NCBI GenBank assembly: GCA_019117125.1
Contig: DXAL01000024.1
Span: 1 to 39,220, forward strand
Length of the DNA: 39,220 bases
Source: Candidatus Mediterraneibacter merdipullorum
Lineage (GTDB): Bacteria > Bacillota > Clostridia > Lachnospirales > Lachnospiraceae
Direction: 5' to 3'
Shown here: positions 9,196 to 24,140 of the stretch, one piece after another
Position numbering within the stretch: the stretch's first letter is position 1
Layout of the letters: every line of letters begins with the position of its first letter
The notes under the pieces: generated by a model
Told to the model about the DNA's origin: nothing
Seen by the model: only the letters and a program-made list of their open reading frames with translations
Databases searched by the model: none
Program-made: the position numbers and the translations under genes

Positions 9196-12100
9196 TTAAT
9201 GCTCTTCTTCCTCTTCCTCCACATATCCGCCGGACGCCTCGCGCTGTTCTCTGGCGAATTTCTCGGATTTGTACTTCTCCCAGAGGGTCGCCTCCTGGAA
9301 TTTCGGCGGCTGGTTGACCACGACCTGGGGATAGGGGATGCTGATATTGTTCCGGTCAAAGAGCAGCTTCATCTCCCGGTTCAGGTCACGCTCCATCTGA
9401 ATCCTGTCAGCCTCTGCACAGAGCACCATGATACGGATATTGACGCTGTTGTCCCCGAGAGATACGACGCCTTTGTAGAACGGTCCGTCCAGTATCTGCG
9501 GGATACGCTCTTTGATGCGCGGGAACTCATCCGCAAGGACACTCTCCACGCGCTCCAGAGACTCGCCGTACTCGATGCCCACGTCAACCCAGGAGTACGA
9601 GTACTCTCTCGTCATATTGATAACGCCGGTCACGTCACTGTTGCTGATAATCTTGATATTTCCGCTGCCGTCCAGTATCTTTGTGGTCCGGATGCCAATC
9701 TCCACGACCGTGCCGCGCCAGTCGCCTATGGTGACAATGTCGCCCACCTGGAACTCGCCTTCAAAGATGATGAACAGTCCCGCAAGGATATCGGATACAA
9801 GCGTCTGCGCACCAAGCCCGACAATCAGAGTCAGGATGCCGGCGGAAGCAAGCAGCGTCGCCGTGTCTATCCCGAACAGGGACAGGCAGTAGAACAGAAG
9901 CGCCAGCACAGAGACATATTTCAGGAAATTCTGGAGCAGCCGGCAGATCGTCTCGCCTTTTGCACCGAATGTCCGCGCCAGCAGCGCAAGAATCTTCTGC
10001 GCAGCCATCGTTATCACACTTCCCACACAAATGATGAGCAACGAGCAGGTAAATGCGAAGATATTCAGTCCGTGCGCCCACTCTCCGCTCAGGACAAAGC
10101 GGAAGATGGACTGTCTTCCGAAGAACCGGTCCTGAAAGAGGACTGCAATGCAGATACCCACTGCAAGGACGGCCAGCAGCGTCTTGAACACCACGAGTAT
10201 CTGCTGCTCCGGCGTCTTCTCCGCCCACTTAATGGCAGTGTTCTGCCAGCGGCTCGCTGCGGACGTCACTTTTCTTGACGGTCTGTCTGCTTTTTCCGGC
10301 TTATCATCTTTTGCCGGCTCTACTTCTTTTATCAGCTCTTCTTTATTTTCCGGTGCATCCGTTCTGTTCACAGTATCTGCTCCGGACATCTGTCCTTCTG
10401 TTTCCTCCGGCTTCGTCCTGCTGAAGGTCAGAAGAGCGAACAGAATGAGCAGCGCCACCAGACTGGCAATACCGGATGTCACAGTGAGCGGCAGCCGGTT
10501 CCCCGCCACATTTTCAGACGGGACTGCAATATAGATATAGTTGCTTCCAATCTCAAGGGATGAGGCATAATATTTGCTGTTGTTTATCGTGAGGTAGCCG
10601 GTGTATCCGTCCATCTGCTGGGATTTCCCAATCCCGTAGGATGCCGCGTTCCTTCCAATCATCTTTTCCGTCGGATAGTAGACGAATTTTCCTTCTTCGG
10701 CGTCTACCGCAAAGACGATTCCGCCATTGCCGGCGCGGATGCCGCTTAAAACCGCTCCGAGCTCCATATTTTCCAGGACATTTTCTAGGAGAGAAGGTTC
10801 AATGCATATCTGCACAAAACCGTCCACATTTCCATCTTTATCTCTTAAAGTAACGCCGATGTACTGCTCGTACTCACCTGTCAGGTCATTGACCTGGGCG
10901 TCCTGTATCAGATACTCCATCCCGATAAGCAGCTTCTGGAACTCATAGGACTGGTCTTCCGGATCGTCGCTGATATGAAATTCCGTATACGGTGAATTCG
11001 TCGCTTTCTGGGCGCCGGTCTTGTCAAACACGCTGACAGACTGGACGCCAAGGATAGAACTCAATTCCGCCAGATGATCCCGGTCCGCAAGTTCCGGCGC
11101 CTTTGTCAGAATATGCGCCGCAATCTGCGCCTTGTTCAGGTAACGCTCATTGTACTGCTCCGTTACGTCTTCGCGTTCCTGTTCAAAGTTATTTATCTCC
11201 CGCTCAATCTCCGTCAGCTTCTGATCATTGCTGATGGACTGCTGGGACAGGGCGAATAGCGTCTGCATATAGAACGATACAAGCAGGATGCACACAAGCC
11301 CGACTACAGATATGGTCCCAATCTTGCGTCCCACTCCCAGATTGTAGAAAAGTCTTTTCGTCAGATGCCTGCGCTCCGACACCACCTCCTGCTGCACGAT
11401 AAAAAATGCATATGTAATGACCAGCGTGATGACGACGAAGAAGGAGAATACGATAATCATCACGGTGATATCCCTCGAAGAAAGTATCTCATCCTCCGGC
11501 ACAGCGCAGATGACATACGCGTCTTCCATGTGGGAAACGCCGCAGTAGAACCGCTTTCCCTGTATCGTCAGCCAGGTGTAATTGTCATCCGTCAGGTCCG
11601 CCACGGAGATTCCGGAAGACAGGGCATCCGCACCCACCAGCTCTTCGACAGGATAGTAAAGGAATGTATAGTCCTTATCCGATACCGCAAAGGTAAATCC
11701 GCTCAAACCCACCGTCACGCTCTTTAACATCGCCTCCCATGTGGAAGTAGAGGCAAGAAGCTGGTCCAGCTCTTTCGGATTCTTCTCAAGGACCGCCATC
11801 GTCTCATTGTCGATGCGGCACCCGTAATAACGGAAATCGCCCCGGTCTGTCTCCACCTCAAAGGCTGTGGACAGGCTGTTCTCGCCGAACACATTTCTCA
11901 GCTGGTTATAGCGCATCCATGTGAAATCTGCGGAAGTCGTCCTGGAGGAACCGAGAATATTTCCCTCCCGGTCCAGCACATAGACAGTTTCCGCATCCAG
12001 AAGGGCCGCGCATTCCTGCAGGTTCGCCTCCGTGTAGCCTTCCATGACGCCGTTCTGGAACATATACGCCATGCTCGCCACCTTTGCCTGCTGTATCTCG

Positions 12101-12306
12101 TCAAAAGACTGGGTCGTCTGTATTTCTGATTCATGAGCATCTGCAATCACCTCATCCATCTGGACAAGCTTGTCATGAGTGCTCTCGCGCTGGTTTGACA
12201 GGGAGAGGTTCGTCTGCATGAAAAACAGAAGACCGCCGAGCAGGACAAGGAATACCGCTCCGACCAGCACCATAAAAATCTCTTTTCGTCTCGTTTCTCT
12301 TTTCAT
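9196..12306 (-). CDS. MscS-family mechanosensitive channel with two extracytoplasmic sensor-like regions
   Basis: This 1036-residue membrane protein ends in an MscS channel core: the pore helix region about 814-849 (LLASAGILTLIVGLGAQTL), the beta domain with GDIVTIGDWRGTVVEIGIR (855-873), and the cytoplasmic alpha-beta domain to about 1000. In front are two large extracytoplasmic regions, about 32-278 and 355-603, flanked by membrane segments near 10-31, 280-304, 329-353 and 606-628. The two regions share repeated wording: FAVSDKDYTFLYYPVEELVG at 206 and FAVDAEEGKFVYYPTEKMIG at 532. This suggests duplicated Cache-like sensors. A charged linker (632-690) joins them to the channel, and the tail is a run of glutamates. 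It starts three bases after the binding-protein gene. Ligand gating is inferred. Confidence 0.9.
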   Translation of the reverse strand: MKRETRRKEIFMVLVGAVFLVLLGGLLFFMQTNLSLSNQRESTHDKLVQMDEVIADAHESEIQTTQSFDEIQQAKVASMAYMFQNGVMEGYTEANLQECAALLDAETVYVLDREGNILGSSRTTSADFTWMRYNQLRNVFGENSLSTAFEVETDRGDFRYYGCRIDNETMAVLEKNPKELDQLLASTSTWEAMLKSVTVGLSGFTFAVSDKDYTFLYYPVEELVGADALSSGISVADLTDDNYTWLTIQGKRFYCGVSHMEDAYVICAVPEDEILSSRDITVMIIVFSFFVVITLVITYAFFIVQQEVVSERRHLTKRLFYNLGVGRKIGTISVVGLVCILLVSFYMQTLFALSQQSISNDQKLTEIEREINNFEQEREDVTEQYNERYLNKAQIAAHILTKAPELADRDHLAELSSILGVQSVSVFDKTGAQKATNSPYTEFHISDDPEDQSYEFQKLLIGMEYLIQDAQVNDLTGEYEQYIGVTLRDKDGNVDGFVQICIEPSLLENVLENMELGAVLSGIRAGNGGIVFAVDAEEGKFVYYPTEKMIGRNAASYGIGKSQQMDGYTGYLTINNSKYYASSLEIGSNYIYIAVPSENVAGNRLPLTVTSGIASLVALLILFALLTFSRTKPEETEGQMSGADTVNRTDAPENKEELIKEVEPAKDDKPEKADRPSRKVTSAASRWQNTAIKWAEKTPEQQILVVFKTLLAVLAVGICIAVLFQDRFFGRQSIFRFVLSGEWAHGLNIFAFTCSLLIICVGSVITMAAQKILALLARTFGAKGETICRLLQNFLKYVSVLALLFYCLSLFGIDTATLLASAGILTLIVGLGAQTLVSDILAGLFIIFEGEFQVGDIVTIGDWRGTVVEIGIRTTKILDGSGNIKIISNSDVTGVINMTREYSYSWVDVGIEYGESLERVESVLADEFPRIKERIPQILDGPFYKGVVSLGDNSVNIRIMVLCAEADRIQMERDLNREMKLLFDRNNISIPYPQVVVNQPPKFQEATLWEKYKSEKFAREQREASGGYVEEEEEEH

Positions 12307-12309
12307 CGC

Positions 12310-13125
12310 TTACTTCTCCCAATCCCATTTGCTTATGAGTCTGTCGATAGTCCCGTCGTCGAGCATCTCCCGGATCGCCGCCTTCACTTCACCGGAAAGC
12401 TCGGAATCTTTCTTGGTCGCAACTCCGTAATTCTGGTATGCGATTTCCTCCTCCAGGAACATCCGGTCGCTGTCCATGTAAGTCTGTGCAATACATTCGT
12501 CCATGCACGCGGCGTCCACCCTGCCCTGCTCGAGCAGGACGTCCAGGTCCTGATAGGACGGCGCCTTCGTCACACTGACGCCTTCGTACTGGGTAAATGT
12601 ATCCGTATTGGAAATGACATTCTCCCCGATGATGCCAAGCTCAAAGAGTTTCGTCGCCAAAAGCGGCGATGCATTCGCCCCCGCCATAGTTCCGATATTG
12701 AGCCCCTTCAGGTCGTAGATGTCCTCGATGAGCGTGGACTTCTCCACCACAACGACTGTGCGGTCCGTATAATACGGGTCAGAAAAATCAAAATTCTCCA
12801 GCCGTGTGTCTGCGATGGAATAAGTCGCCACCACGCAGTCCACATCACCGGCAAGCAGCATGTCTTTCCTGGTGTCCGGCGTCACGGTCACATACTCCAC
12901 ATCCGAGTATCCCATCCGCTCTGCCATCTCCGCTGCGATGTCAATCTCAAGCCCGTAGTATTTTCCTGTCGTTTCATTCAGATATCCGAAATTCATGATA
13001 TCATCGCGCACGCCCACACGCAGTGTCCCACTGCTTTTTTCTCCGCCGCATCCTCCTGCAAGAAGTCCCGCAGCCAGCGCAAGCGCAGCGGTGAGCGCCG
13101 CCCGTTTTCTCATTGTACCTTTCAT
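12310..13125 (-). CDS. Solute-binding lipoprotein (amino-acid-type periplasmic binding fold)
   Basis: The 271-residue protein has a lipoprotein signal ending at C26 (LLAGGC). It continues as a type II binding protein of the HisJ/GlnH class: LRVGVRDDIMNFGY, YGLEIDIAAEMAERMGY, then VATYSIADTRLENFDFSDPY and DLKGLNIGTMAGA. Such proteins bind amino acids or similar small solutes outside the membrane. No ABC permease or ATPase is adjacent. Instead the gene runs with a three-base gap into the sensor-bearing MscS channel. Hence it may present ligand to that channel rather than to a transporter. The start at 13125 follows AGGAGAG. Confidence 0.9.
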   Translation of the reverse strand: MKGTMRKRAALTAALALAAGLLAGGCGGEKSSGTLRVGVRDDIMNFGYLNETTGKYYGLEIDIAAEMAERMGYSDVEYVTVTPDTRKDMLLAGDVDCVVATYSIADTRLENFDFSDPYYTDRTVVVVEKSTLIEDIYDLKGLNIGTMAGANASPLLATKLFELGIIGENVISNTDTFTQYEGVSVTKAPSYQDLDVLLEQGRVDAACMDECIAQTYMDSDRMFLEEEIAYQNYGVATKKDSELSGEVKAAIREMLDDGTIDRLISKWDWEK

Positions 13126-13327: not shown

Positions 13328-14014
13328 TTATGAATTCTCTCCCTCTTTGTTCAGGAACATCCAGATGACAGCTGCGATCGCTGCACCTACGAGCGGTCCC
13401 ACGATAAATACCCATACCTGGGAAAGTGCTTCGCCGCCTGCAAAGACAGCCGGTCCAAGGCTTCTTGCCGGGTTGACGCTCGTTCCTGTCAGCGGGATGC
13501 CGATGATGTGAACGAATGTCAGCGTCAGACCGATTACAAGTCCTGCTACGCTGGAGAATGACTCTTTGGATGTCACTCCGAGGATTGCAATCAGGAAGAT
13601 GCATGTCAGCACAATCTCAACGATGAGCGCGCCTGTCATGTCAAGTCCCACATAGGAAGCATCTCCGTATCCGTTCGTTCCAAGTCCTGTGATGACCGGG
13701 TCGCACATGCTGCCTACGACTTTGAGCAGGCCTGCTGCCGCGAGACCGCCGATAATCTGTGCAATCACATAGCCGATGAAATCTTTTCCGTCCATCCTCT
13801 TGCTGATGAGCATTGCAAGGGATACTGCCGGGTTGATGTGGCATCCGGAAATATTTCCGATTGAGTAAGCCATTGCTACGATAGAAAGACCGAAAGCAAC
13901 TGCGATACCAAGGATACCGAGTACTCCGTCCACCCCTCCTGAAACTGCTGCCGCACCGCAGCTGACAAATGTCAGCACGAATGTGCCGATGAATTCTGCT
14001 ACATATTTTCTCAT
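13328..14014 (-). CDS. Aquaporin (AqpZ-like MIP family channel)
   Basis: A 228-residue six-helix channel with both half-helix signatures: HINPAV (NPA at 61-63) and SVNPAR (NPA at 181-183). The H170 in VHIIGIP and the TGTS stretch before the second NPA resemble water-selective AqpZ more than glycerol facilitators, so water transport is the favoured role. The start at 14014 follows AAAGGAGG. It stands alone, with a terminator-like hairpin upstream and a 202-base gap downstream. No glycerol kinase or other glycerol gene is near, which agrees with an aquaporin. Confidence 0.92.
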   Translation of the reverse strand: MRKYVAEFIGTFVLTFVSCGAAAVSGGVDGVLGILGIAVAFGLSIVAMAYSIGNISGCHINPAVSLAMLISKRMDGKDFIGYVIAQIIGGLAAAGLLKVVGSMCDPVITGLGTNGYGDASYVGLDMTGALIVEIVLTCIFLIAILGVTSKESFSSVAGLVIGLTLTFVHIIGIPLTGTSVNPARSLGPAVFAGGEALSQVWVFIVGPLVGAAIAAVIWMFLNKEGENS

Positions 14015-14070: not shown

Positions 14071-14108
14071 AAAAGCAAGCGAAATGCAAAAAATTACATT
14101 TCGCCTGC
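14071..14108. terminator. Intrinsic terminator after the GntR regulator gene
   Basis: A 12-base stem with one mismatch (14075-14086 pairing with 14097-14108) surrounds a ten-base A/T-rich loop. On the minus strand it is followed by TTTT. T-tracts on the other side make it potentially bidirectional. It closes the low-coordinate end of the 14-24 kb module. Confidence 0.85.
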
Positions 14109-14143
14109 TGTTTTTTACCTTTTCATTTTCTCTTATTTTGATT

Positions 14144-14791
14144 TCACTTACGTATCTTTGCAAATGCAGTCTGCGTAATTCCCCGGGCATTCTCGAAGTG
14201 AATCTTTAATTCTTTCTTTAATTCACCCAGGTCTTTTTTCCGGAGAAGTTCAATAATCTTTACATGAGAGCGGACAATATATTCCATATCGTCATAATAA
14301 GAAATTGTAAGACTTGCCCACTGAAGAGCACTCATCTGCCACATCTTTAAAAGCATTGGATTGTTCACCGATTTCACCATCACCGCATGCAGATTATTGT
14401 CTTCATTTATGATTGTCAGCCGATCCCCGGCGTCCAACGCTTTCCACATATTCTGAAGATGTTCTTCCATCTCGCAGATATCCTGTTCTTTCATCTTCTC
14501 CACTGCAAATTCCGCTGAATATGCCTCAAGCATATTGCGGAGTTCAAACGCCTGGTTGATGATCTCTGTGTTAAAGGGAAGCACATAACATCCTACATAA
14601 GGTTTACTCTCTACAAGCCCCATCCCTTCCAACTGGAGAAGTGCCTCTCTGACAGGCGCCTGAGACACTCCGAGATCCTTTGCAACCTGACTTTCTACGA
14701 TACGATCCCCCGCTCTCAGTTTCTGAGTCATAATCTGATCTCTGAGATATCTGCTAATATTATCACTAATCGTCTGTTTTTTAATTTTCAT
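14144..14791 (-). CDS. GntR family (FadR/FCD) transcriptional regulator
   Basis: The 215-residue protein has an N-terminal winged helix typical of GntR: ISRYLRDQIMTQKLRAGDRI, VAKDLGVSQAPVREALLQLEG at about 35-55. A C-terminal all-helical FCD ligand domain follows (about 80-205). FCD domains usually bind small organic acids or sugar acids, often with a metal; the histidine in NLHAVMV fits a metal-site position. It is the last gene of the catabolic module and probably senses a pathway substrate or intermediate. An inverted repeat in its own upstream region suggests autoregulation. Confidence 0.93.
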   Translation of the reverse strand: MKIKKQTISDNISRYLRDQIMTQKLRAGDRIVESQVAKDLGVSQAPVREALLQLEGMGLVESKPYVGCYVLPFNTEIINQAFELRNMLEAYSAEFAVEKMKEQDICEMEEHLQNMWKALDAGDRLTIINEDNNLHAVMVKSVNNPMLLKMWQMSALQWASLTISYYDDMEYIVRSHVKIIELLRKKDLGELKKELKIHFENARGITQTAFAKIRK

Positions 14792-14805
14792 ATAGTTTCC
14801 AGTCC

Positions 14806-14843
14806 GGTATTATTTTATATTTTCATTTCTTTATCATAATACC
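14806..14843. promoter_or_regulatory. Inverted repeat upstream of the GntR regulator, possible operator
   Basis: GGTATTAT (14806-14813) is repeated inversely as ATAATACC (14836-14843), a perfect eight-base match with a 22-base A/T-rich spacer. On the minus strand the upstream half covers a TATTAT sequence that could be a -10 box. A related TGGTAATAT sequence overlaps the promoter candidate of the operon at about 23964-23972. The assignment as an operator is inferred from position and symmetry. Confidence 0.4.
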
Positions 14844-14895
14844 ATAAATTTCCAGAATTTTCACTATATAATTACTTTTATACATCTCCCGTTTC

Positions 14896-15357
14896 TCAGG
14901 AATCAGGATACTCTGCCGGTTCTTCAATCAGCTCAAGATTCGTCCCATCCGGGTCTTTAAAATAGATCCATTTCATTCCGGCAATCGGACCGTCTTTAAT
15001 CTCCTCAAATGTGTCTGAGCAGAACTGTATTCCCTTACTTTTCAAATCAGTTATGGTCCCGGCAATATCGTCGACACGAAGTGCTATATGAACGCACCCC
15101 AAAGTGTTGACCGGTACGCCATACCCAAACAATGATGAAGGTTTCAGGTATTGAATCAGCTCAAATGTTTCCGCTGTCCCCGGTATTCCAATAACTGCAA
15201 GCTGAATTTCTGCTCCCGGGACTCCAAGTTTATCGCCTCGTGATTTCCGCACAGGTTCCTTTTTTAACAGCTCCAATCCAAGAATATTATGATAAAAATT
15301 TATGCTTTCTTCAAGATTCCTCACGGAAATTCCTGAATGAACTACTCCTGTAATCAT
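14896..15357 (-). CDS. VOC (glyoxalase/epimerase-fold) family protein
   Basis: The 153-residue protein has two beta-alpha-beta-beta-beta repeats of the vicinal oxygen chelate fold. Expected metal ligands are in place: H7 (GVVHSGISV), E66 (TFELIQYL), H90 (CVHIALRVDD) and E142 (LELIEEP). The family includes glyoxalase I, methylmalonyl-CoA epimerase and other isomerases, and the substrate cannot be told from sequence. The ATG at 15357 follows GGAGG at five bases, preferred over in-frame starts upstream. Lying between the binding-protein and regulator genes, it probably acts in the same catabolic route, perhaps as an epimerase or isomerase. Confidence 0.88.
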   Translation of the reverse strand: MITGVVHSGISVRNLEESINFYHNILGLELLKKEPVRKSRGDKLGVPGAEIQLAVIGIPGTAETFELIQYLKPSSLFGYGVPVNTLGCVHIALRVDDIAGTITDLKSKGIQFCSDTFEEIKDGPIAGMKWIYFKDPDGTNLELIEEPAEYPDS

Positions 15358-15422
15358 AAACGCCTCCATCAACAGAGGAAGAGGGACCGCCAGACAGTCC
15401 CCTTCCCACATTGTACATTGAA

Positions 15423-16415
15423 TTAATATACCTGATATTCAAAGTCTGCTGCGTTGTCTTTTGTCACAATATCCAGTTCTGCATTGATTCTCTTTTCAAC
15501 CGTTCCACCGTCAAGAACAGTTAAAATAGCGTCTAAAGCATTATCCAGCATCATCGGCGGAGTTGTGACATCCCATGCCTGGGTGCCGTCCAGAAGTCTC
15601 TGATAGCCGTCCGACTGAAGGTTTGCACCGCCGACCAGTATCTCATCTGTCCGTCCTGCCGCATCGATTGCCTGTACTACGCCGCCTGCCATCTCGTCAT
15701 TCGCACACCATACAGCATCAATCTCACTGTTTGCCTGCAGGATTGCTTCCATTGTCTCCATTGCTTTTGCACGGTTGTAATCACATGCCTGCTCTGCAAT
15801 AATTTCAATCCCATCATACTGATCGATGATATTGTGGAATCCTGTCGTACGGTCTTCCGCTGTGGAAAGTCCCGGCGTACCGGAAATATATACAATCTTT
15901 CCGGACTCTCCCATCGCATCTACCAGCCCCTGTGCTCCAAGCTCGCCCAGTTCGATATCATCTGTACCTGAGAATGTCACATACAGGTCCTGAACCGAAG
16001 GCATATCACGAAGTACAACTGCTACAGGGATATCCGCCTCCGCTGCCGCCTCAACTGCCGGTGCACATGCCTGTCCGTCAACAGGGCTAATCAGAAGACC
16101 ATCAATGCCCATCGCTATCAGAGCGTTTACGTCATCAAGCTGTGTGGATGAATCTCCCTGTGCATCCTTTACCGCGTACTCAATATTTTTCTCTTCGCAG
16201 ATATCTTCAAATCTGTTTCCCGTTTCTGCCTGAAGGATAACTTTGTAATCGCCAACGCTGTATCCTAAGAAATAACCTTCTTCATCTCCGCCTGTCTCTT
16301 CCTGAGCATTGCCTTCCGTTTTTTCGGCATCTGTGTCAGACCCGCCGCTGCATGCTGTCATTGAGAATAACATTGCCATTGCAAGACCTACCGCTACGAT
16401 TCTTTTGTGTTTCAT
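15423..16415 (-). CDS. Sugar-binding lipoprotein of a ribose-type ABC importer (RbsB-like)
   Basis: The 330-residue product has a lipoprotein signal with cleavage before C22 (FSMTAC) and a type I periplasmic-binding fold. This is seen in DDVNALIAMGIDGLLISPVDG, the hinge-region VVLRDMPSVQ, and later VWCANDEMAGGVVQAIDAAGR. It captures a monosaccharide or polyol for the permease and ATPase encoded just upstream. A GGAGG ribosome site precedes the start. The 59-base gap from the permease gene contains a hairpin that may raise the level of this protein. The specific ligand is unknown. Confidence 0.93.
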   Translation of the reverse strand: MKHKRIVAVGLAMAMLFSMTACSGGSDTDAEKTEGNAQEETGGDEEGYFLGYSVGDYKVILQAETGNRFEDICEEKNIEYAVKDAQGDSSTQLDDVNALIAMGIDGLLISPVDGQACAPAVEAAAEADIPVAVVLRDMPSVQDLYVTFSGTDDIELGELGAQGLVDAMGESGKIVYISGTPGLSTAEDRTTGFHNIIDQYDGIEIIAEQACDYNRAKAMETMEAILQANSEIDAVWCANDEMAGGVVQAIDAAGRTDEILVGGANLQSDGYQRLLDGTQAWDVTTPPMMLDNALDAILTVLDGGTVEKRINAELDIVTKDNAADFEYQVY

Positions 16416-16444
16416 GTTTTTTCCTCCTTTTTTACTTGTTTATA

Positions 16445-16469
16445 TTTAACCCTGCCTGTCCGGGTTAAA
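16445..16469. other. Intercistronic hairpin between permease and binding-protein genes
   Basis: TTTAACCC (16445-16452) and GGGTTAAA (16462-16469) pair perfectly around a nine-base loop. It lacks a proper T-tract. Hairpins at this place often stabilise the binding-protein mRNA or mark a processing site; that role is inferred here. Confidence 0.5.
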
Positions 16470-16474
16470 TTCTA

Positions 16475-17440
16475 TCATGACTTTTTCTTAAGACTGTTAA
16501 AGTCAACCAGAACTGCAAATACCATGAGCAGACCTTTGATAAACTGGTAGTACTGCGATGGTACATTTAACAGGACCAGTCCATTATTTAATACTGCGAT
16601 GATAAAAATACCAAGGATAGTATAAAATACTCCTCCTTCGCCGCCGCGCATTGATGTTCCGCCAATGATGACCGCTGAGATTGCATCCAGCGACCAGCCA
16701 TCTGCAGCTGCGACTTCCGCCGCCGATGTACGTGCTGTAAGGAGAATTCCGCCAAGCGCAGACAACAGCCCTGACAACACATATACGAACATTCGCACAC
16801 GTTCTACTTTGATACCGGAAAGTCTTGCAGCCTCGGCATTTGAACCGACCGCATAAACATATCTGCCTAATCTCGAATGATTCAGGAGCACATAGGAAAC
16901 GGCGATGATAACCGCAAAATAAATAATTGGTACTGGAAGAGGGCCTACCGTTCCTTTCGCAAGCTCCCGGAATTTCTCATCAATCTCGTAAATGGAAATT
17001 CCTTTCGTATAAATCATTACGATGCCTCTTCCAATCTGGCTCATGGCAAGAGTGAAAATAAACGGCTGTATATTCGTTCTTGTCAAAATAAATCCATTGA
17101 TAAATCCAAATATCAGACCAACTGCCAGACCGCTTAAAATCGCCGCCGGAAGATTGGAACTCAAAGCACCTGACACAATACCTGCCAGACATGCGACAGC
17201 TTCTGTTGAAAGGTCAATTCCTCCGGAAAGTATGACATATGTAACACCAATCGCCAGCAGTCCGGAAATCGAATTTGAACGGATAACATCAATCAGGTTT
17301 CCCGCTGTCAGAAAAGCGTCTGAAACAATGGTAAAAAATATACACATTGCAATAAAAACAATTAATAGTGCATATCTTCTTAAATCCGTCGCCTTAAGTG
17401 CAGTTGTTTTAAGAGCAGTTTTTTTATTCATTTGCTTCAC
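16475..17440 (-). CDS. Ribose-type ABC transporter permease (RbsC-like)
   Basis: A 321-residue polytopic protein of the BPD_transp_2 family. Hydrophobic segments begin at about residue 24 and continue to the C-terminus. Family motifs include VTYVILSGGIDLS, GFINGFILTRTNIQPFI, GSNAEAARLSGI (the loop contacting the ATPase) and SAVIIGGTSMRGGEG. It forms the membrane channel for the sugar delivered by the RbsB-like protein. The first 17 bases overlap the end of the ATPase gene, showing tight coupling. Confidence 0.94.
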   Translation of the reverse strand: MKQMNKKTALKTTALKATDLRRYALLIVFIAMCIFFTIVSDAFLTAGNLIDVIRSNSISGLLAIGVTYVILSGGIDLSTEAVACLAGIVSGALSSNLPAAILSGLAVGLIFGFINGFILTRTNIQPFIFTLAMSQIGRGIVMIYTKGISIYEIDEKFRELAKGTVGPLPVPIIYFAVIIAVSYVLLNHSRLGRYVYAVGSNAEAARLSGIKVERVRMFVYVLSGLLSALGGILLTARTSAAEVAAADGWSLDAISAVIIGGTSMRGGEGGVFYTILGIFIIAVLNNGLVLLNVPSQYYQFIKGLLMVFAVLVDFNSLKKKS

Positions 17441-18932
17441 CTCCCGTTATTGTCATAAGGATTTTCTCCTGATCCGCTTCCTCACCCGGCATCTCTCCTT
17501 TCATTTTCCTGTCGTGCAGAATCAGAATCCGGTCAGACAATGCAAGTACTTCCGGCATCTCCGAAGAAAGTACCATAACCGCCATTCCTGAATGAGCAAG
17601 TTTGTGAATCAGATTATAAATTTCTTCTTTCGACCCTACATCAATACCGCGCGTAGGCTCATCCAGCAGCAATATCCTGGGATTTCTCGCAATCCACTTG
17701 GATAAGACCGCTTTCTGCTGATTTCCACCGCTTAAGTGTTTCATCTTCTGATTGACGCTGTGGCATTTTACATTCAGGTTCCTGACACATTCTTCAGCAA
17801 GACTTTTTTCTTTTGAACGGCGTACCAAAAACCGCATTTTTCTCATTTGATTCAGATTAACTATGGCAATATTTGACTTTATATCAAATTCCTGAAACAG
17901 ACCGGTCTGCTTTCTGTCTTCCGGGACAAGTCCAATTCCTGCATTCATTGCCTGCAGCGGATTTTTAAAATTCACTTCTTTTCCCTCGACAGTAATAGTT
18001 CCGTCTGTTTTTTTATCAACTCCGAAAATTACATTTGCAAGTTCGGTTTTTCCGGCTCCAAGCAGTCCTGTAACACCCAGTATTTCTCCTGCTTTCAGTT
18101 CAAATGAAATATCCTCTATGTGCGAAGATGATACGTGTTCCAGTTTCATCACTACCGGAGCATTCGTTAAATCAACCCCTTCCTGTCTCTGCAGATATCC
18201 GGAAGCATCCTTTCCTACCATCTCACGGATGATTTCCGGAATCGAAATATCGCTGACTTCCGCCGTTCTTACATTCTTTCCGTCCCGCAGTATTGTTACG
18301 CGATCGCAGATATCTTTTATTTCATCCAGCCTGTGGGAAATATAAATAACTGAAATATGCTGTTCCCGAAGCTTTTTAATCGCCCTCAGGAAATAGTCAT
18401 ATTCGATCGGCGTCATGGCTGATGTCGGTTCATCCAAAATTACGATTCTGGCATTGCCAAGAAGACACCTGCAGATTTCTGTAAAAAACTGTGCCCCGAT
18501 TCCCAGAGTCCGCACCTGTCGTTTTACATCAAAATCCAGGCTGAGCAAATCCAGCATTTCCCGCGCTTTCCTGTATGTTTCCTTTTCGTTGACCCACATC
18601 TTTTTCCCCAGTTCCCGTCCGAGGAAAATATTGTCTGCCACGGAAAGATGGGGGACAAGTGAAAGTTCCTGATAAATACACTGAATTCCCAGCGCATGCG
18701 CATCCTGTGGATTGTGGATTTCCTTCTCTTCTCCGAATACTTTCACAACGCCCGAATCTTTTTCATGTGCTCCGGACAGGATTTTTATGAGTGTAGACTT
18801 TCCTGCTCCATTTTCTCCAAGGAGCGCATGTATTTCTCCCTCTTTCAGCTCAAAATCAACATCCTTCAAAACCGGCACTCCTGAAAACCCTTTATGAATA
18901 TGTTCCATCTTTATTGCATAAACATCACCCAT
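17424..18932 (-). CDS. Ribose-type ABC transporter ATPase with two nucleotide-binding domains (RbsA-like)
   Basis: The 502-residue protein has two ATPase domains. The first carries Walker A GENGAGKST (39-47) and Walker B VILDEPTSAM, but its signature is degenerate (LGIGAQ). The second has a GLLGAGKTEL P-loop, an intact LSGGNQQK signature and LLLDEPTRGIDVG. One good and one weak signature is usual for RbsA/XylG-type proteins. It powers uptake through the overlapping permease gene. It starts 30 bases after the lactonase gene, so uptake and catabolic genes share one transcript. Confidence 0.95.
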   Translation of the reverse strand: MGDVYAIKMEHIHKGFSGVPVLKDVDFELKEGEIHALLGENGAGKSTLIKILSGAHEKDSGVVKVFGEEKEIHNPQDAHALGIQCIYQELSLVPHLSVADNIFLGRELGKKMWVNEKETYRKAREMLDLLSLDFDVKRQVRTLGIGAQFFTEICRCLLGNARIVILDEPTSAMTPIEYDYFLRAIKKLREQHISVIYISHRLDEIKDICDRVTILRDGKNVRTAEVSDISIPEIIREMVGKDASGYLQRQEGVDLTNAPVVMKLEHVSSSHIEDISFELKAGEILGVTGLLGAGKTELANVIFGVDKKTDGTITVEGKEVNFKNPLQAMNAGIGLVPEDRKQTGLFQEFDIKSNIAIVNLNQMRKMRFLVRRSKEKSLAEECVRNLNVKCHSVNQKMKHLSGGNQQKAVLSKWIARNPRILLLDEPTRGIDVGSKEEIYNLIHKLAHSGMAVMVLSSEMPEVLALSDRILILHDRKMKGEMPGEEADQEKILMTITGGEANE

Positions 18933-18962
18933 GTTTTCACCTCCTTGCCTGATCTTATTATG

Positions 18963-20006
18963 TTAATATTTGTCGTACCAGTGGACCATCGGAAGACCTG
19001 CAACCGGTGAGCGGAAATACGGAATACTTGTTTCTTTTAAAGCTCCAATGTAGACCGTCTTCCTGTCCGGACCCCCGAAGCAGACACTCGCCGTCCATGC
19101 ACACGGACCTGCCGCCGTCGGAAACAGAATATCATTTGTCACTTTTCCCGCATAAAATGCGTCATCCAAAGCCTGTATTTTGTCATGGTCGCCAAAATCA
19201 AGAAGAATATGGCCTTCTCCTTCCGGGTCGATAAACCACACTTTATTGGAATATACCATCGTCCCCCACAGGTTTCCGTATTCATCAAAAGCAATGCCAT
19301 CCGGATAAGCTCCCTGTCCCCATTCGGAAGGCCCGTATACTTCTTTATTGTGCAAATCGCCGTTTTCATCACAGCGGAACCGTACAATCCGTCCGCCTTT
19401 TACTCCTGTCGTCTCAACACAGTACAGATATTCTTCCTTTGCATCAAAGCGGACTTCATTGGTAAAGTGAAGACCATCCGCCACAATATGCGCTCCTCTG
19501 TGGTCATAACGGATAATATACCCGTCATCTAGGTCCGGCCGGAGTGCTTCAAGCCAGTTTTTCTTCATCGTTGTTACTGTAATCCAGATACGGTCTTTGG
19601 AATCCCGCAGGACAAAATTAACTTTTCCTATTTCCCTCCCATCTACAGTATCGAATAAAACTTTTGTCTCTCCGGTTTTCCGGTCCATAAGTTCCAGACA
19701 GTCTGTTCCGAAATTAGAAATCAGGATATTCCCTTTCCGGTCAAACGCAAGTCCGTTTGGAAGTGTCCCGTTAAAAAAGCGGTCCACATCATTTGCCGCA
19801 TCCAGTCCGGATACGTTTTTCTGGGTGATAACATTCTGGGTCCCGTCTGCAAGAATATGACATACTCCTCCTCTTGCATCCGCCGCCCACAGACTTCCAT
19901 CCCGCTCAGCCAGAATACATTCCGGGCGCTGCAAATCTCTGCCGATAAATTGCAGCTGTTCCGGGTCAATTTCAAATCCATATAACGGATTATCTTTTTT
20001 CATCAC
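18963..20006 (-). CDS. SMP-30/gluconolactonase/LRE-family lactonase
   Basis: This 347-residue six-bladed beta-propeller carries the metal-ligand positions of the family: a glutamate in QRPECILAE (E29), an asparagine in LPNGLAFDRKGN and an aspartate in YPDGIAFDEYGNLWG. These enzymes hydrolyse sugar or other lactones using a divalent metal. No signal peptide is visible, so it should act in the cytosol. Placed after a dehydrogenase and CoA-transferase, it probably opens a lactone formed by oxidation of the imported sugar. The preferred lactone cannot be deduced. Confidence 0.9.
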   Translation of the reverse strand: MMKKDNPLYGFEIDPEQLQFIGRDLQRPECILAERDGSLWAADARGGVCHILADGTQNVITQKNVSGLDAANDVDRFFNGTLPNGLAFDRKGNILISNFGTDCLELMDRKTGETKVLFDTVDGREIGKVNFVLRDSKDRIWITVTTMKKNWLEALRPDLDDGYIIRYDHRGAHIVADGLHFTNEVRFDAKEEYLYCVETTGVKGGRIVRFRCDENGDLHNKEVYGPSEWGQGAYPDGIAFDEYGNLWGTMVYSNKVWFIDPEGEGHILLDFGDHDKIQALDDAFYAGKVTNDILFPTAAGPCAWTASVCFGGPDRKTVYIGALKETSIPYFRSPVAGLPMVHWYDKY

Positions 20007-20033
20007 TGCACCTCCTTATCTGTTCAACACCCG

Positions 20034-21614
20034 TCAGCTAATCATATCTTTTAATCCAAATTTACCTTCCACATAGATGCTCGTCGGAATCTGTTTCAGG
20101 TCAGGACTGATACGCGGAATGAATTCCATTTTGTCGAGGATATCTTTCTGAAGGTCAATTCCCTTTGCAATCTCAATCAATTCAGGACCGTTTTCATCAA
20201 TCCGGAATACACATCTTTCGGTTACATAATAAACGTTCTGCCCATTCCTGCTCGCAAGTTTTCCATTCAGAGACACCTGCGTTACTTCTTTGACAACTTT
20301 GCATATCTTTCCTTCGGAGAGTATCTCAACGCCTTTTTCCTCACTGAATCTGCACTTGAGACCTTTCCCCATAAAAGTTGAACAAAAGACTATGTTTTTC
20401 GCAGCAGATGTAATATCTACAAATCCCCCTGACCCCGGCGCGATATTTCCCATCTTTGTGGAATTAACATTTCCTTCTGCATCCATCTCACCGCATCCCA
20501 TAAAGGTATAGTCCACACCGGCACCCTCATAAAAATCAAACTGTTCATTTACAGATATAAGTGCAACTGTATTCTGTGATATACCAAAATCAATTCCGCC
20601 CGCAGGCACGCCGCCATAAACACCGGACTCTACCGTAATCATAATATCGTCCATCAGATTTTCTTCCGCCAGGATTGGACCGACTGTATCATTCGGGATA
20701 CCGGTTCCGACATTAATAATGGAATTTTTCTTCAGCTGCATTAAAGCGCGTCTTCCGATTACTTTACGCTCATTCATGGGATAGATATCCAGCTCCGCAT
20801 AAGGTGCTCTGATCTGTCCGGAATATGTATCATCCTGATACCATCCGGACGATTGTCTGTGATTCTCAAACGGATTTTCTGCAACAACGACATAATCCAC
20901 AAACACACCCGGGATTGTGACCTGTTTGGGCGGAATGGAACCCGTACCTACTTTCTGACGAACCTGAACTATAACCTTCCCGCCGAATTTCTTTGTTGCA
21001 AGCACTGCCGGCAGAAGTTCCAATATGCATCCTTCATCGATTGTAGATATATTTCCAAGTTCATCGGCATATGTTCCGCGAATAATCAGATGATCCAATT
21101 TTGTATAGTGATATTTCAGATAATCTTTCCCGTCTATCTGAATCAATTCCACAAGGTCTTCCTTCAACGCCTTTGTCCGCTCGTTCATTTTTCCACCTTC
21201 CAGACGGGGGTCTATAAAAGTTCCCAGTCCTGTCGTCGTAATGAGCGCCGGTTCTCTCCGGTTCACTGCACTGTGCAGATGTGCGCATACACCCAGCGGC
21301 ATGCAGAATGCTTCTACTTTATTATCCGTGATAATCTCCATCAGATTTGGGGCCAGACCCCAGTGCGAACCGATAATTCTTTTTAACATTCCTTCATGAC
21401 CAAGGCGGTTCATACCACCTACTTTGTCTGAAATTCCTGCTGAGTGAAAAAATGTAAGGTCTCTCGGTGTTCCTTCCTCCAGATAGGAACGCTCCATTTC
21501 TTTTAATATCTCTTCCGGCGAGCCGACCAGCGTCATCCCGACCATGCCAAAGACATCCCCGTCTTTTATTGTTTTTACGACCTCTTTTGCCGTAACAAAT
21601 TCTGGTACACGCAT
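20034..21614 (-). CDS. Single-chain acyl-CoA:acetate/3-oxoacid CoA-transferase
   Basis: The 526-residue protein contains both halves of a family I CoA-transferase in one chain, as in propionate CoA-transferase and YdiF. The alpha-like part spans about 1-240. The beta-like part, from about 285, holds the expected catalytic glutamate E329 in TVESGVYGG, followed by AGGIDFGIS and GCGEMDAEG. It would move CoA from acetyl-CoA or another acyl-CoA to a carboxylic acid product of the pathway. The thiolase gene lies 21 bases upstream, suggesting the acceptor is a 3-oxo acid. Exact specificity is inferred from context. Confidence 0.93.
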   Translation of the reverse strand: MRVPEFVTAKEVVKTIKDGDVFGMVGMTLVGSPEEILKEMERSYLEEGTPRDLTFFHSAGISDKVGGMNRLGHEGMLKRIIGSHWGLAPNLMEIITDNKVEAFCMPLGVCAHLHSAVNRREPALITTTGLGTFIDPRLEGGKMNERTKALKEDLVELIQIDGKDYLKYHYTKLDHLIIRGTYADELGNISTIDEGCILELLPAVLATKKFGGKVIVQVRQKVGTGSIPPKQVTIPGVFVDYVVVAENPFENHRQSSGWYQDDTYSGQIRAPYAELDIYPMNERKVIGRRALMQLKKNSIINVGTGIPNDTVGPILAEENLMDDIMITVESGVYGGVPAGGIDFGISQNTVALISVNEQFDFYEGAGVDYTFMGCGEMDAEGNVNSTKMGNIAPGSGGFVDITSAAKNIVFCSTFMGKGLKCRFSEEKGVEILSEGKICKVVKEVTQVSLNGKLASRNGQNVYYVTERCVFRIDENGPELIEIAKGIDLQKDILDKMEFIPRISPDLKQIPTSIYVEGKFGLKDMIS

Positions 21615-21635
21615 TTTTATCTTCCTTTCTTCCTT

Positions 21636-22832
21636 TTACTGACACTTTGTAAAATACATTGCTATTCCCTGTCCGCCTCCGATGCACATTGTAATAAGCG
21701 CGTCTTTCTTATCAGACCTCATTAATTCGTACATGACTTTTGTTGCCAGCACTGCGCCGGTCGCCCCGATCGGATGCCCTATAGATATGCCGCCTCCATA
21801 AATATTGACTTTTTCCATATCCAGTCCAAGGTCTCTTGTTACAGCTACGGATTGGCTTGCAAAAGCCTCATTGATTTCAAACATATCAACGGCCTTCAGG
21901 TCAATATCCAGTTCTGCTGCAATCTGTTCGCATGCATATTTGGGCGCATATCCCATAAGTTCCGCTTCATTTCCGACGATTTTAAATCCTTCTATCTTCA
22001 TTTTAGGCACTGCTCCAAGCCTCTTTGCCGCATCCAGAGACATTACGACTACCGCACCTGCGCCGTCATTCAGACTGGAAGAATTTCCTGCCGTAACGGT
22101 CGCTTCTTCGTCATTCATAAAGCAGGGTCTTAATTTGCCAAGGATTTCCATCGACTGATTTTCTCTCGGACCTTCATCTGTATCAAAGACAGTCACCTGC
22201 CCTTTTCTCCCTTTTATTTCTATCGGAACAATCTCATCTTTGAATTTCCCCGCCTGAATTGCTGCAACAGCCTTTTTGTGGCTCGACAGTGCAAATGCAT
22301 CCTGTTCCTCTCTTGTGACATGATATTTTCTGGCAACATTTTCTGCTGTAACGCCGTTATGGCTGTTGTTCAGCGGCCAGGTCAGAATATCTATCACACC
22401 GTCTTCAAATGTCTTATGTCCCATGCGTGCTCCCCAACGTGCATCTTTTACATAATAAGGAAGCTGGGAAATGCTTTCTGCACCGCCTGCCACAACTACT
22501 TCCGCATGTCCGGTCTGAATCTCCATCATTGCGTCCGCAATAGACTGCAGACCCGAACCGCACTGCCTGTTAACCGAATATGCCGTCGTCTTCTCCGGAA
22601 GTCCGGCTTTTAAACTAATCGCTCTCGCAATAAATCCGTTTTCTGCAATTTCGCCTACATTTCCGATAATGACTTCGTCTACATCATCCGGTGAGATTCC
22701 AGCCCGTTTCACCGCCTCTGCAACAACAACAGCCCCCAGATCGATTGCTGACATTGTTTTCAGACTTCCTCCGAAAGACCCTACAGCAGTCCTGGCTGCA
22801 CTGACAATTACCACGTCCTTTAATCCAACCAT
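21636..22832 (-). CDS. Thiolase (acetyl-CoA C-acyltransferase family)
   Basis: A 398-residue thiolase with all catalytic residues: nucleophile C91 in NRQCGSG, H353 in GGISIGHPIGATG and C383 in MCIGGGQG. In the degradative direction it cleaves a 3-oxoacyl-CoA with CoA to acetyl-CoA and a shortened acyl-CoA. Acetoacetyl-CoA chemistry is the default annotation, but its place in a sugar-uptake operon suggests a hydroxylated 3-oxoacyl-CoA as substrate. It lies 26 bases after the dehydrogenase gene. Confidence 0.95.
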   Translation of the reverse strand: MVGLKDVVIVSAARTAVGSFGGSLKTMSAIDLGAVVVAEAVKRAGISPDDVDEVIIGNVGEIAENGFIARAISLKAGLPEKTTAYSVNRQCGSGLQSIADAMMEIQTGHAEVVVAGGAESISQLPYYVKDARWGARMGHKTFEDGVIDILTWPLNNSHNGVTAENVARKYHVTREEQDAFALSSHKKAVAAIQAGKFKDEIVPIEIKGRKGQVTVFDTDEGPRENQSMEILGKLRPCFMNDEEATVTAGNSSSLNDGAGAVVVMSLDAAKRLGAVPKMKIEGFKIVGNEAELMGYAPKYACEQIAAELDIDLKAVDMFEINEAFASQSVAVTRDLGLDMEKVNIYGGGISIGHPIGATGAVLATKVMYELMRSDKKDALITMCIGGGQGIAMYFTKCQ

Positions 22833-22858
22833 GTTCTTCCTCCATTTGCCCTTGTAAT

Positions 22859-23914
22859 CTACGGTTTAATCACAACTTTTAATGACTTCTCTGCTCTGGT
22901 TGTAAATATTTCATATGCTTTTGAATATTGTGAGAGCGGGAAGACATGTGTTACCAATTTCCTCAATTCGTCCTTATGTCCGTCTGCAATACTGATTGCC
23001 CCTTCCAGAGTATTCGGATTCGCCCGGTTCCCGACAAATTCAATCTCATCCATCACAAGGTGCTTGACCGGTATCGCAACATCTTCCTTTGGAAGACCTA
23101 CGACAGAGATGGTTCCTCCCCTGGCTGCGGACCAGCATGCATTTCTTACCCCCTGCACTGTTCCTGTGGTTTCCATCACACGCATGACGCCATATCCGCT
23201 TGTGTATTCCATAACCTTTTGTACAACATCTTCCTTCCTGTAATCAATCGGGATCGCGCCGAGATTTTCCGCCATTTTCAGTCTGTCGCCGCTGCCCGCA
23301 CAATAAATATTCTTTGCTCCGAGACTCTTACAGCAGATTACAGCCATCCAGCCCTGCGCTCCCGCTCCGTTTACCAGAACATCGTCTCCTGCTTTCAGAT
23401 GGCTGTGTTCAACCATATGCAACGCAATGGATAACGGGTCCATCAGGCAGCCAATCTCAAACTCCATGTCATCTGGCAATTTACAAATCGATCTGATATT
23501 TACGGCTATATATTCTGCATAGGCGCCTGATGAAATATGTCCGTACATCCGGTGTATCTTCGGATTGCCATAATTAAGACAGAGAGTAAAACGACCTTCC
23601 ATACAGTTTTTACAGTGTCCACAGCCAAGATTTGCAATTCCGCACACCCGGTCACCGGCTTTATAACCATACTCAGAAACATTCCTCCCAAGAGCTACGA
23701 TTGTCCCCGCCCATTCATGCCCCGGAATCAGAGGAAATCTCTGAGGCCATTCTCCCGGAAAATCGCCCTGTATGATATGCGGGTCTGTTCCGCATATCGA
23801 AACTGCCTCAACTTTGCACAGGACTTCATTTTCACCTGCCTCGGGCTTTGGGACATCCGTATAAATAAAATCATTTGGTCCCCGCAGGACGATCGCTTTC
23901 ATTATGCCTCCCAT
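22859..23914 (-). CDS. Zinc-dependent medium-chain alcohol/polyol dehydrogenase
   Basis: A 351-residue MDR dehydrogenase. Catalytic zinc ligands are C41 (SICGTD) and H66/E67 (GHEW), with D159 where many relatives have Glu (LMDPLSIALH). Four structural-zinc cysteines are at 98, 101, 104 and 112. The Rossmann motif GAGAQG is at 183-188. The next strand ends in CAGSGDRL without the usual NAD-selecting acidic residue, so NADP use is possible. Relatives oxidise sorbitol, threonine or sugar alcohols. It is the first gene of the nine-gene operon. The start at 23914 has AAAGGAG at eight bases; ATG 23902 is an alternative. Confidence 0.92.
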   Translation of the reverse strand: MGGIMKAIVLRGPNDFIYTDVPKPEAGENEVLCKVEAVSICGTDPHIIQGDFPGEWPQRFPLIPGHEWAGTIVALGRNVSEYGYKAGDRVCGIANLGCGHCKNCMEGRFTLCLNYGNPKIHRMYGHISSGAYAEYIAVNIRSICKLPDDMEFEIGCLMDPLSIALHMVEHSHLKAGDDVLVNGAGAQGWMAVICCKSLGAKNIYCAGSGDRLKMAENLGAIPIDYRKEDVVQKVMEYTSGYGVMRVMETTGTVQGVRNACWSAARGGTISVVGLPKEDVAIPVKHLVMDEIEFVGNRANPNTLEGAISIADGHKDELRKLVTHVFPLSQYSKAYEIFTTRAEKSLKVVIKP

Positions 23915-23928
23915 CTGCTCATCTCCTT

Positions 23929-23949
23929 TATCGATTTTCGATTATCGAT
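23929..23949. repeat. Three 7-base direct repeats in the operon leader
   Basis: TATCGAT, TTTCGAT and TATCGAT occur end to end, followed by a partial TATC. They lie between the promoter candidate and the ribosome site of the dehydrogenase gene. A regulator or DNA-bending protein could bind, but function is unknown. Confidence 0.55.
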
Positions 23950-23960
23950 TATCTAGTTAC

Positions 23961-24100: not shown

Positions 24101-24140
24101 CAAAACACCTCCTGTCAGATATTCTGACAGGAGGTGCTTT
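24101..24140. terminator. Strong bidirectional-type terminator
   Basis: A perfect 13-base stem (24106-24118 with 24124-24136) closes a five-base loop. It is followed by TTTTG on the minus strand and by CTTTTA on the plus strand. It ends the MFS transporter transcript and insulates the operon whose promoter lies just beyond. The stem itself contains AGGAGG. Confidence 0.92.

Follow-up and report, generated by a model that had tools for sequence, protein, structure and literature searches.

Nine adjacent genes of Candidatus Mediterraneibacter merdipullorum raise the question of which compound they take up and by what chemistry it is degraded. They fill positions 14144-23914 of contig DXAL01000024.1 (assembly GCA_019117125.1), analysed over a stretch of 39,220 nucleotides (the window), as nine open reading frames (ORFs) all on the minus strand (Table 1). 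From the protein families, the gene order, the homologies, and an operator-like site shared with another gene cluster, we infer the reactions, their order, the substrate, and the regulation by GntR. Tentatively, the set is read as an operon under GntR control by which a hydroxy acid and/or its lactone is imported and used anaerobically; a 2-deoxy-aldonate of the 2-deoxyribonate class is the most likely compound. Whatever the substrate, the best-supported scheme is the opening of a lactone or ring, formation of a 3-keto acid, coenzyme A (CoA) transfer, and thiolysis. The ribose-type (CUT2) importer would take in an unphosphorylated compound, and the SMP-30 enzyme would hydrolyse its lactone to a 3-hydroxy acid. 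The zinc dehydrogenase (ADH) would oxidise C3 to give the 3-keto acid, or might instead oxidise a lactol group. With acetyl-CoA or the product acyl-CoA as donor, the CoA-transferase would load CoA onto the 3-keto acid. Cleavage by the thiolase would then release acetyl-CoA together with a hydroxyacyl-CoA of shorter chain (glyceryl-CoA for a five-carbon substrate), the CoA of which would be recycled by the CoA-transferase. Epimerisation of a carbon adjoining a carbonyl is a possible role of the VOC enzyme.

The genes are tightly packed. From ADH to GntR, the intergenic distances are 26, 21, 27, 30, -17, 59, 11, and 104 bases, thus below 70 bases in seven of the eight gaps, the exception being the 104 bases between the VOC and GntR/FCD genes. 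A VOC start at residue 19, from which the VOC of a second genome (locus L012) is 84% identical, would turn the 11-base gap into 65 bases. The initial annotation, made from the letters alone, had described nine one-direction genes of these families with most gaps under 70 bases, which Pfam and the measured distances confirm. It had also stated that no kinase, aldolase, or isomerase is present, which is true for the nine genes; a glycerate kinase is encoded elsewhere in the genome, on another contig. The order recurs in an uncultured Lachnospiraceae metagenome-assembled genome (MAG), of which contig L012 carries the thiolase (from residue 127) through GntR in identical order at 70-91% identity, and another contig (G640:C428) carries ADH (81%) followed by thiolase residues 1-96 (89%). 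The nine-gene order is therefore kept in two species, allowing one contig break within the thiolase. Since this order recurs in a second species and the operator-like site is unique in the genome (see below), the arrangement goes beyond chance.

The unit is real but rare. In its own genome (2.3 Mb, 94% complete), the CoA-transferase matches only itself. A strong SMP-30 match occurs in two of 200 family genomes (its own and G167, 80%), and in one of 58 genus genomes and one of 391 class genomes, each time its own; weaker matches at 27-33% identity number two in one of these surveys and five in another. A scan of 84,980 species genomes, started from a two-sequence alignment, yielded 10 loci from nine genomes; it relied on two peptide patterns that more distant members would escape. 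Among the SMP-30 loci, L014 is apparently the same contig as L011, L016 and L021 stem from one MAG, and L019 and L020 have the lactonase gene at contig edges with no readable context. The co-occurrence of the families across Lachnospiraceae, which had been put forward as a check, is thus borne out as a conserved unit, though in two genomes, and not as a common trait of the family. The G+C content of the operon (0.448, against 0.536 to its left and 0.478 to its right in the window) is compatible with acquisition of the gene set.

The thiolase and the CoA-transferase point to deoxyribonate. According to the accessible part of Price et al. 2019 (PMC6365646), the deoxyribonate cluster of Klebsiella michiganensis comprises a CoA-synthetase, a beta-hydroxyacyl-CoA dehydrogenase, a thiolase, a CoA-transferase, a glycerate kinase, a lactonase, and two MFS transporters. 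A cluster on a plasmid of K. pneumoniae (L067) holds VOC, ligase, CoA-transferase, FabG, thiolase, MFS, SMP-30, MFS, and glycerate kinase genes, and its gene content suggests that both clusters encode one pathway. The operon thiolase is 53% identical to that of L067 over 396 residues and the CoA-transferase 47% over 522 residues, which supports the proposal of the initial annotation that a 3-oxo acid undergoes CoA transfer and thiolysis by analogy with deoxyribonate. Its word "undescribed" is too strong, a CoA-bound thiolytic deoxyribonate route having been proposed in 2019 in the portion of that report available (PMC6365646); the operon adds a rare variant of this published scheme. No description of the operon itself, or of the cluster B introduced below, was found in the literature titles and abstract openings listed, a search that left most subscription papers outside. 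Operon and Klebsiella clusters share the thiolase, the single-chain CoA-transferase, SMP-30 and VOC members in the cluster, and a predicted cleavage at the 3-keto acyl-CoA stage. In contrast, the operon possesses a zinc ADH, lacks a CoA ligase and FabG among its nine genes, uses a CUT2 importer in place of MFS transporters, and its VOC protein is only 23% identical to that of L067.

Closer relatives of this back end are found in Lachnospiraceae. Some CoA-transferase match is present in 36 of the 200 family genomes (own included), and the eleven best places after the operon's own (50-56%), all in Lachnospiraceae, were fetched and compared. A CoA-ligase-like gene (30-36% identical to that of Klebsiella) is present in all eleven and a FabG (56-64% to Klebsiella FabG) in six. 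Ten have a thiolase, at 69-77% to the operon thiolase in seven and at 49% in three; the eleventh stretch is cut off by the end of its contig. FabG accompanies the closer thiolase in four of these seven places. The operon thus shares its back end with a ligase-CoA-transferase-thiolase module of several Lachnospiraceae, but lacks the ligase and FabG of that module. ORFs resembling the cyclase family by eye lie near such modules at L069:3951-4703 and L070:16079-16813, possibly representing the same scheme with a ring-opening step.

Promiscuity is known of YdiF-type transferases and BktB-type thiolases, and the two enzymes might serve only acetoacetate or butyrate metabolism while being co-transcribed with an unrelated sugar-oxidation set. 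This is improbable, given the gene order fixed in two species, the single genome-unique operator-like site before the set, and the related modules that pair thiolase and CoA-transferase with a ligase and often with FabG.

The front end has other relatives. The operon SMP-30 protein has an SGL domain and a predicted beta-propeller lactonase fold, its model (mean pLDDT 73.6) matching in Foldseek the beta-propeller lactonases 8djf and 7plc as well as 3g4e; in sequence, SMP-30 relatives of known structure are remote (best E 2e-6). Residues E29, N130, N183, and D236, which we take to be metal ligands, are the same in all 16 clade members compared. Close lactonases (76-82% in L011, L013, L015, and L018/L084) belong to a second gene set, termed cluster B, of gut Lachnospiraceae and Oscillospiraceae MAGs: L013 (1-11387), L015 (1-13022)/L081 (8867-12500), L018/L084, and L011. 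In four cluster B genomes, the gene next after SMP-30 is an ADH 67-74% identical to that of the operon, and L081 encodes a GntR (40% to the operon GntR) divergent from the transketolase. Cluster B comprises a split transketolase, a malonate-semialdehyde-type aldehyde dehydrogenase (MMSDH-type; 544 bits against a curated cut-off of 448.5), and a molybdenum hydroxylase of three subunits, together with a PEP-synthase-like protein split into a pair, DUF1097, a cupin, SMP-30, ADH, and a 302-residue protein with no Pfam or NCBIfam match. Apart from the lactonase, ADH, GntR, and operator, cluster B differs from the operon: the split transketolase, molybdenum dehydrogenase, PEP-synthase-like pair, cupin, and MMSDH (not in L013) take the place of the CUT2 importer and of the thiolase and CoA-transferase. 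The two operon-type lactonases nest within the cluster B group of a FastTree tree with moderate inner-node support (0.85 and 0.75). A third set, cluster C, surrounds SMP-30 proteins of the same clade in Treponema MAG loci L016 (1460-12934), L017, and L021. In L016, the lactonase is accompanied by split transketolase halves and an MMSDH (562 bits), in L017 and L021 by a cupin. The set further contains SDR epimerases, xylose-isomerase-like barrels, ABC permease-like ORFs (these named by eye), and a DUF362 protein.

Cluster B and the operon appear to share an operator. Comparison of upstream regions gave TCGATTATCGATAATCGA in L083, from which L081 differs by one end base, and overlapping copies before the operon ADH. 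The 2.3 Mb genome contains a single exact match to GATWATCGATWATC, which occupies 23940-23953 and precedes the ADH ORF by 25 bases. In L083 the site likewise precedes ADH, and in L081 it falls between the GntR and transketolase genes. Single exact sites are located upstream of ADH in G640, in the GntR-transketolase intergenic region in G642, 60-90 bases upstream of the transketolase in G643, depending on the start chosen, and at a contig edge in G641, near a GntR gene of 28-30% identity; G167, G644, and G645 have none. The motif was derived from the own genome (G000), G640, and G642, so that G643 and, less clearly, G641 are the independent cases. Read backwards as a control, GATWATCGATWATC has no exact site in any of the eight genomes. 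One-mismatch sites precede the PEP-synthase-like gene in G641 and G642 and occur on the G643 cluster B contig (L084). Others are found in all eight genomes but G642 and are unrelated where read: seven (L092, L095, L096, L098, L099, L100, and L102) have no cluster genes nearby, and the reading extended to all but G641 C239 and C280, G640 C409, G167 C182, and G645 C434. A one-mismatch site at G000 C1:1496, between repeat-protein-like and aldo-keto-reductase-like ORFs (by eye) and away from any cluster genes, was rejected. Within the window alone, two matches at up to two mismatches are not significant (17 of 100 shuffles), and the argument is therefore based on where the site lies and on its count across the genome. 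We infer a predicted operator common to the operon and cluster B, presumably bound by GntR.

The operon thus looks like a hybrid of two catabolic modules, because its back end matches the Klebsiella and Lachnospiraceae modules, its lactonase, ADH, and GntR match cluster B, and the operator-like site is common to the operon and cluster B. A 2-deoxy-aldonate is the favoured substrate because the thiolase and CoA-transferase point to deoxyribonate and because cluster B repeats the series of Pseudomonas simiae, which, as far as the available text of PMC6365646 describes it, oxidises deoxyribose in three steps by a molybdenum dehydrogenase, a lactonase, and a dehydrogenase. A lactonase and a dehydrogenase, which in the operon too would lead to a 3-keto acid, are common to P. 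simiae and the operon, cluster B adding the molybdenum dehydrogenase, whereas cleavage is by BKACE in the former and would be by CoA transfer and thiolase in the latter. The genome (94% complete) has no match to the BKACE family PF05853, a search positive in one of 14 control genomes, and this absence of the alternative cleavage enzyme is counted in favour of thiolysis. The best curated match of ADH is L-threonine 3-dehydrogenase (204 bits, below the cut-off of 380), an enzyme oxidising the 3-hydroxyl of an acid, as would suit the proposed step. The glycerate kinase, a common gene present in five of 14 control genomes, would meet the need for glyceryl-CoA disposal.

The MMSDH of cluster B would likewise favour a deoxy-sugar acid, since it would yield acetyl-CoA from an acid with a methylene at C2. 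Two unrelated end-modules may then be joined to one front end of lactonase, ADH, GntR, and operator: the thiolytic one, and a thiamine-dependent one in which the split transketolase would cut the 2-deoxy-3-keto acid between C3 and C4, giving malonate semialdehyde that the MMSDH-type enzyme would convert to acetyl-CoA. A front end common to both would constrain the chemistry of the shared intermediate. This extension is doubtful, and slightly more so because L013, one of the three cluster B loci covering the region, lacks MMSDH there; L018 and L015/L081 have it, and L011 is too short to show whether it occurs.

Several observations weigh against the deoxy-sugar acid. The operon is found in two genomes only. 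Unlike the Klebsiella clusters, it includes neither a CoA ligase nor a FabG-type dehydrogenase nor a glycerate kinase; for the CoA-synthetase and the FabG-type dehydrogenase, the nine genes were searched and the remaining genome was not. In L013, the molybdenum genes come straight after the transketolase, with no MMSDH. The substrate-binding protein (SBP) does not disclose its ligand. Its PDB matches are of the ribose-binding type (2ioy at E 1e-41), and, at what we take to be the ribose-contact positions of RbsB, the replacements N64 to S110, D215 to N265, and Q235 to T285 are consistent in two alignments. Asp89 and Arg90 of RbsB are placed differently by the alignments, so that the ligand is unreadable, and the structure model is poor (pLDDT 47.9), the pocket being judged from sequence alone. 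A loss of both RbsB aspartates (D89 and D215), which would have favoured an anionic ligand, was dropped, D89 being aligned to L135 against a close RbsB relative but to D137 in two other comparisons. Finally, the lactonase shares only 21-23% identity with its Klebsiella counterpart and belongs to a separate clade, a point on which the initial interpretation is not supported as it stood.

The plasmid homologues of the lactonase lead elsewhere. A tblastn search against plasmids returned 54 records, and the 20 listed include nine full-length homologues at 46-54%; eight neighbourhoods were examined, H5, an apparent twin of H4, being left out. They are mostly ring-catabolic, with a cyclase-family gene in five of eight, a fumarylacetoacetate hydrolase (FAH) in five, and a VOC protein in three, and with BKACE, acetoacetate-CoA ligase, Rieske/FAD oxygenase, and C-glycoside-cleavage-type genes in single ones; a Deinococcus plasmid has sugar-isomerase, DUF6379, and GMC genes. 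An Azospirillum plasmid set resembles the FdeE and Rieske protein FdeD of Herbaspirillum, which hydroxylate naringenin according to the consulted part of PMC8552027; in the portions of the fde operon literature available, no mention of an SMP-30 or gluconolactonase protein was located. Across 16 lactonases, 82 residues are invariant and none is fixed differently between the gut and plasmid groups. The deoxy-sugar reading is genuinely weakened by this, since the operon lactonase may have a lactone derived from a ring as its target. On this view, a polyphenol or polyketide ring of the phloroglucinol or pyrone type would give rise to the substrate, a lactone or cyclic 1,3-diketone, which SMP-30 would open to a 5-hydroxy-3-oxo or 3,5-dioxo acid, ADH would oxidise, and the CoA-transferase and thiolase would convert to acetyl-CoA units. 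As reported in the accessible part of PMC10470551, the phloroglucinol cluster of Clostridium scatologenes comprises a cyclase, a dehydrogenase, BKACE, a thiolase, and a CoA-transferase. It resembles the operon in uniting a ring-opening hydrolase, dehydrogenase, thiolase, and CoA-transferase, and the L069 cyclase-like ORF stands beside an operon-type thiolase and CoA-transferase. In contrast, the nine genes include no phloroglucinol reductase, cyclase, or BKACE, the last being absent from the genome too; for the reductase and cyclase, the remaining genome was not searched. The R. rhizogenes K84 neighbourhood has neither cyclase nor FAH, that of Methylobacterium a cyclase only, and the molybdenum dehydrogenase and transketolase of cluster B are left unexplained. 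The importer is of a sugar type: xylose, arabinose, and ribose models lead for its ATPase, below their cut-offs (among the best 25 of 188 matches), and the permease scores 237 bits against the ribose permease model (cut-off 398). A ring-derived substrate is accordingly considered unlikely, although less so than the other alternatives.

CUT2 importers are known for inositol, and a cyclitol or deoxycyclitol could be oxidised by ADH to an inosose or diketone, opened by SMP-30, and passed to the CoA-transferase and thiolase. ADH reaches 159 bits against the scyllo-inosose 3-dehydrogenase IolM (cut-off 450), and in Treponema L016 SMP-30 has an MMSDH-type enzyme and two xylose-isomerase-like barrels as neighbours. 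ADH scores higher, however, against threonine dehydrogenase; the nine genes lack inositol dehydrogenase, IolB, IolD, and IolE; and we know of no precedent for the opening of diketoinositol by SMP-30. A search of the literature for inositol degradation by way of a thiolase and a CoA-transferase listed two papers, both unrelated. A cyclitol pathway is the least probable of the explanations weighed here.

Table 1. Genes of the operon and the operator-like site before it, in window coordinates.
Feature	Position	Strand	Evidence
ADH, zinc medium-chain dehydrogenase, first gene	22859-23914	-	Pfam ADH_N/ADH_zinc_N/Glu_dehyd_C
Thiolase (BktB-like)	21636-22832	-	Pfam Thiolase_N/C; NCBIfam TIGR01930
CoA-transferase, single-chain, YdiF/FadX type	20034-21614	-	PF01144 (CoA_trans)
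SMP-30/gluconolactonase-type lactonase, separate clade	18963-20006	-	PF08450 (SGL), 84 bits vs 26.3
ABC importer ATPase, ribose-type (CUT2), RbsA-type	17424-18932	-	Two ABC_tran stretches
CUT2 importer permease, RbsC-type	16475-17440	-	Pfam BPD_transp_2
Substrate-binding protein of the importer (SBP)	15423-16415	-	Pfam Peripla_BP_4
VOC-superfamily enzyme, possible epimerase	14896-15411 (start probably 15357)	-	Glyoxalase domain
GntR/FCD regulator	14144-14791	-	PF00392 + PF07729
Operator-like palindromic repeat	23933-23953	.	Two overlapping GATWATCGATWATC sites, the first shifted by 7 against the second; one is exact, the other has a mismatch

Among the nine proteins, only the thiolase passes a curated NCBIfam cut-off (TIGR01930, 437 bits against 240.6), the other eight having no match at this level (for the ATPase, among the best 25 of 188). 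It shows the motifs QCGSG from residue 90, GHPIG from 352, and CIGGG from 383. The CoA-transferase matches the PDB entry of YdiF (2ahu) at E 8e-106 and has an ESG at 329, presumably its catalytic motif. Glyoxalase and methylmalonyl-CoA epimerase structures are among the matches of the VOC protein.

On the upstream side, the space between the operon and an MFS-like gene contains a hairpin (24106-24136) whose stem has 14 pairs. It is called a terminator on the plus strand only, with four T behind it on the operon strand; the scan found 17 terminator-like sites in 12.5 kb, where 10.4 +/- 3.0 are expected. Directly downstream of the GntR gene is an aquaporin/glycerol-facilitator-like gene (13328-14014, by eye), separated from it by a terminator-like 16-pair hairpin (14074-14109). 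Further on, a solute-binding-protein-like ORF (12310-13125, by eye) adjoins a 1036-residue ORF (9196-12306), the translation of which resembles by eye an MscS-type channel at its C-terminus and paired sensor domains in its long N-terminal region.

If the proposed pathway is true, anaerobes of the animal gut can oxidise deoxy-sugar acids or related lactones and cleave them by thiolysis, with no ATP cost for activation. The operator and the lactonase clade, being common to both gene sets, would offer a tractable handle on cluster B, a second unexplained gut cluster, whose split-transketolase branch, if true, would represent both new enzymology and a new anaerobic pathway for deoxy-sugar acids.

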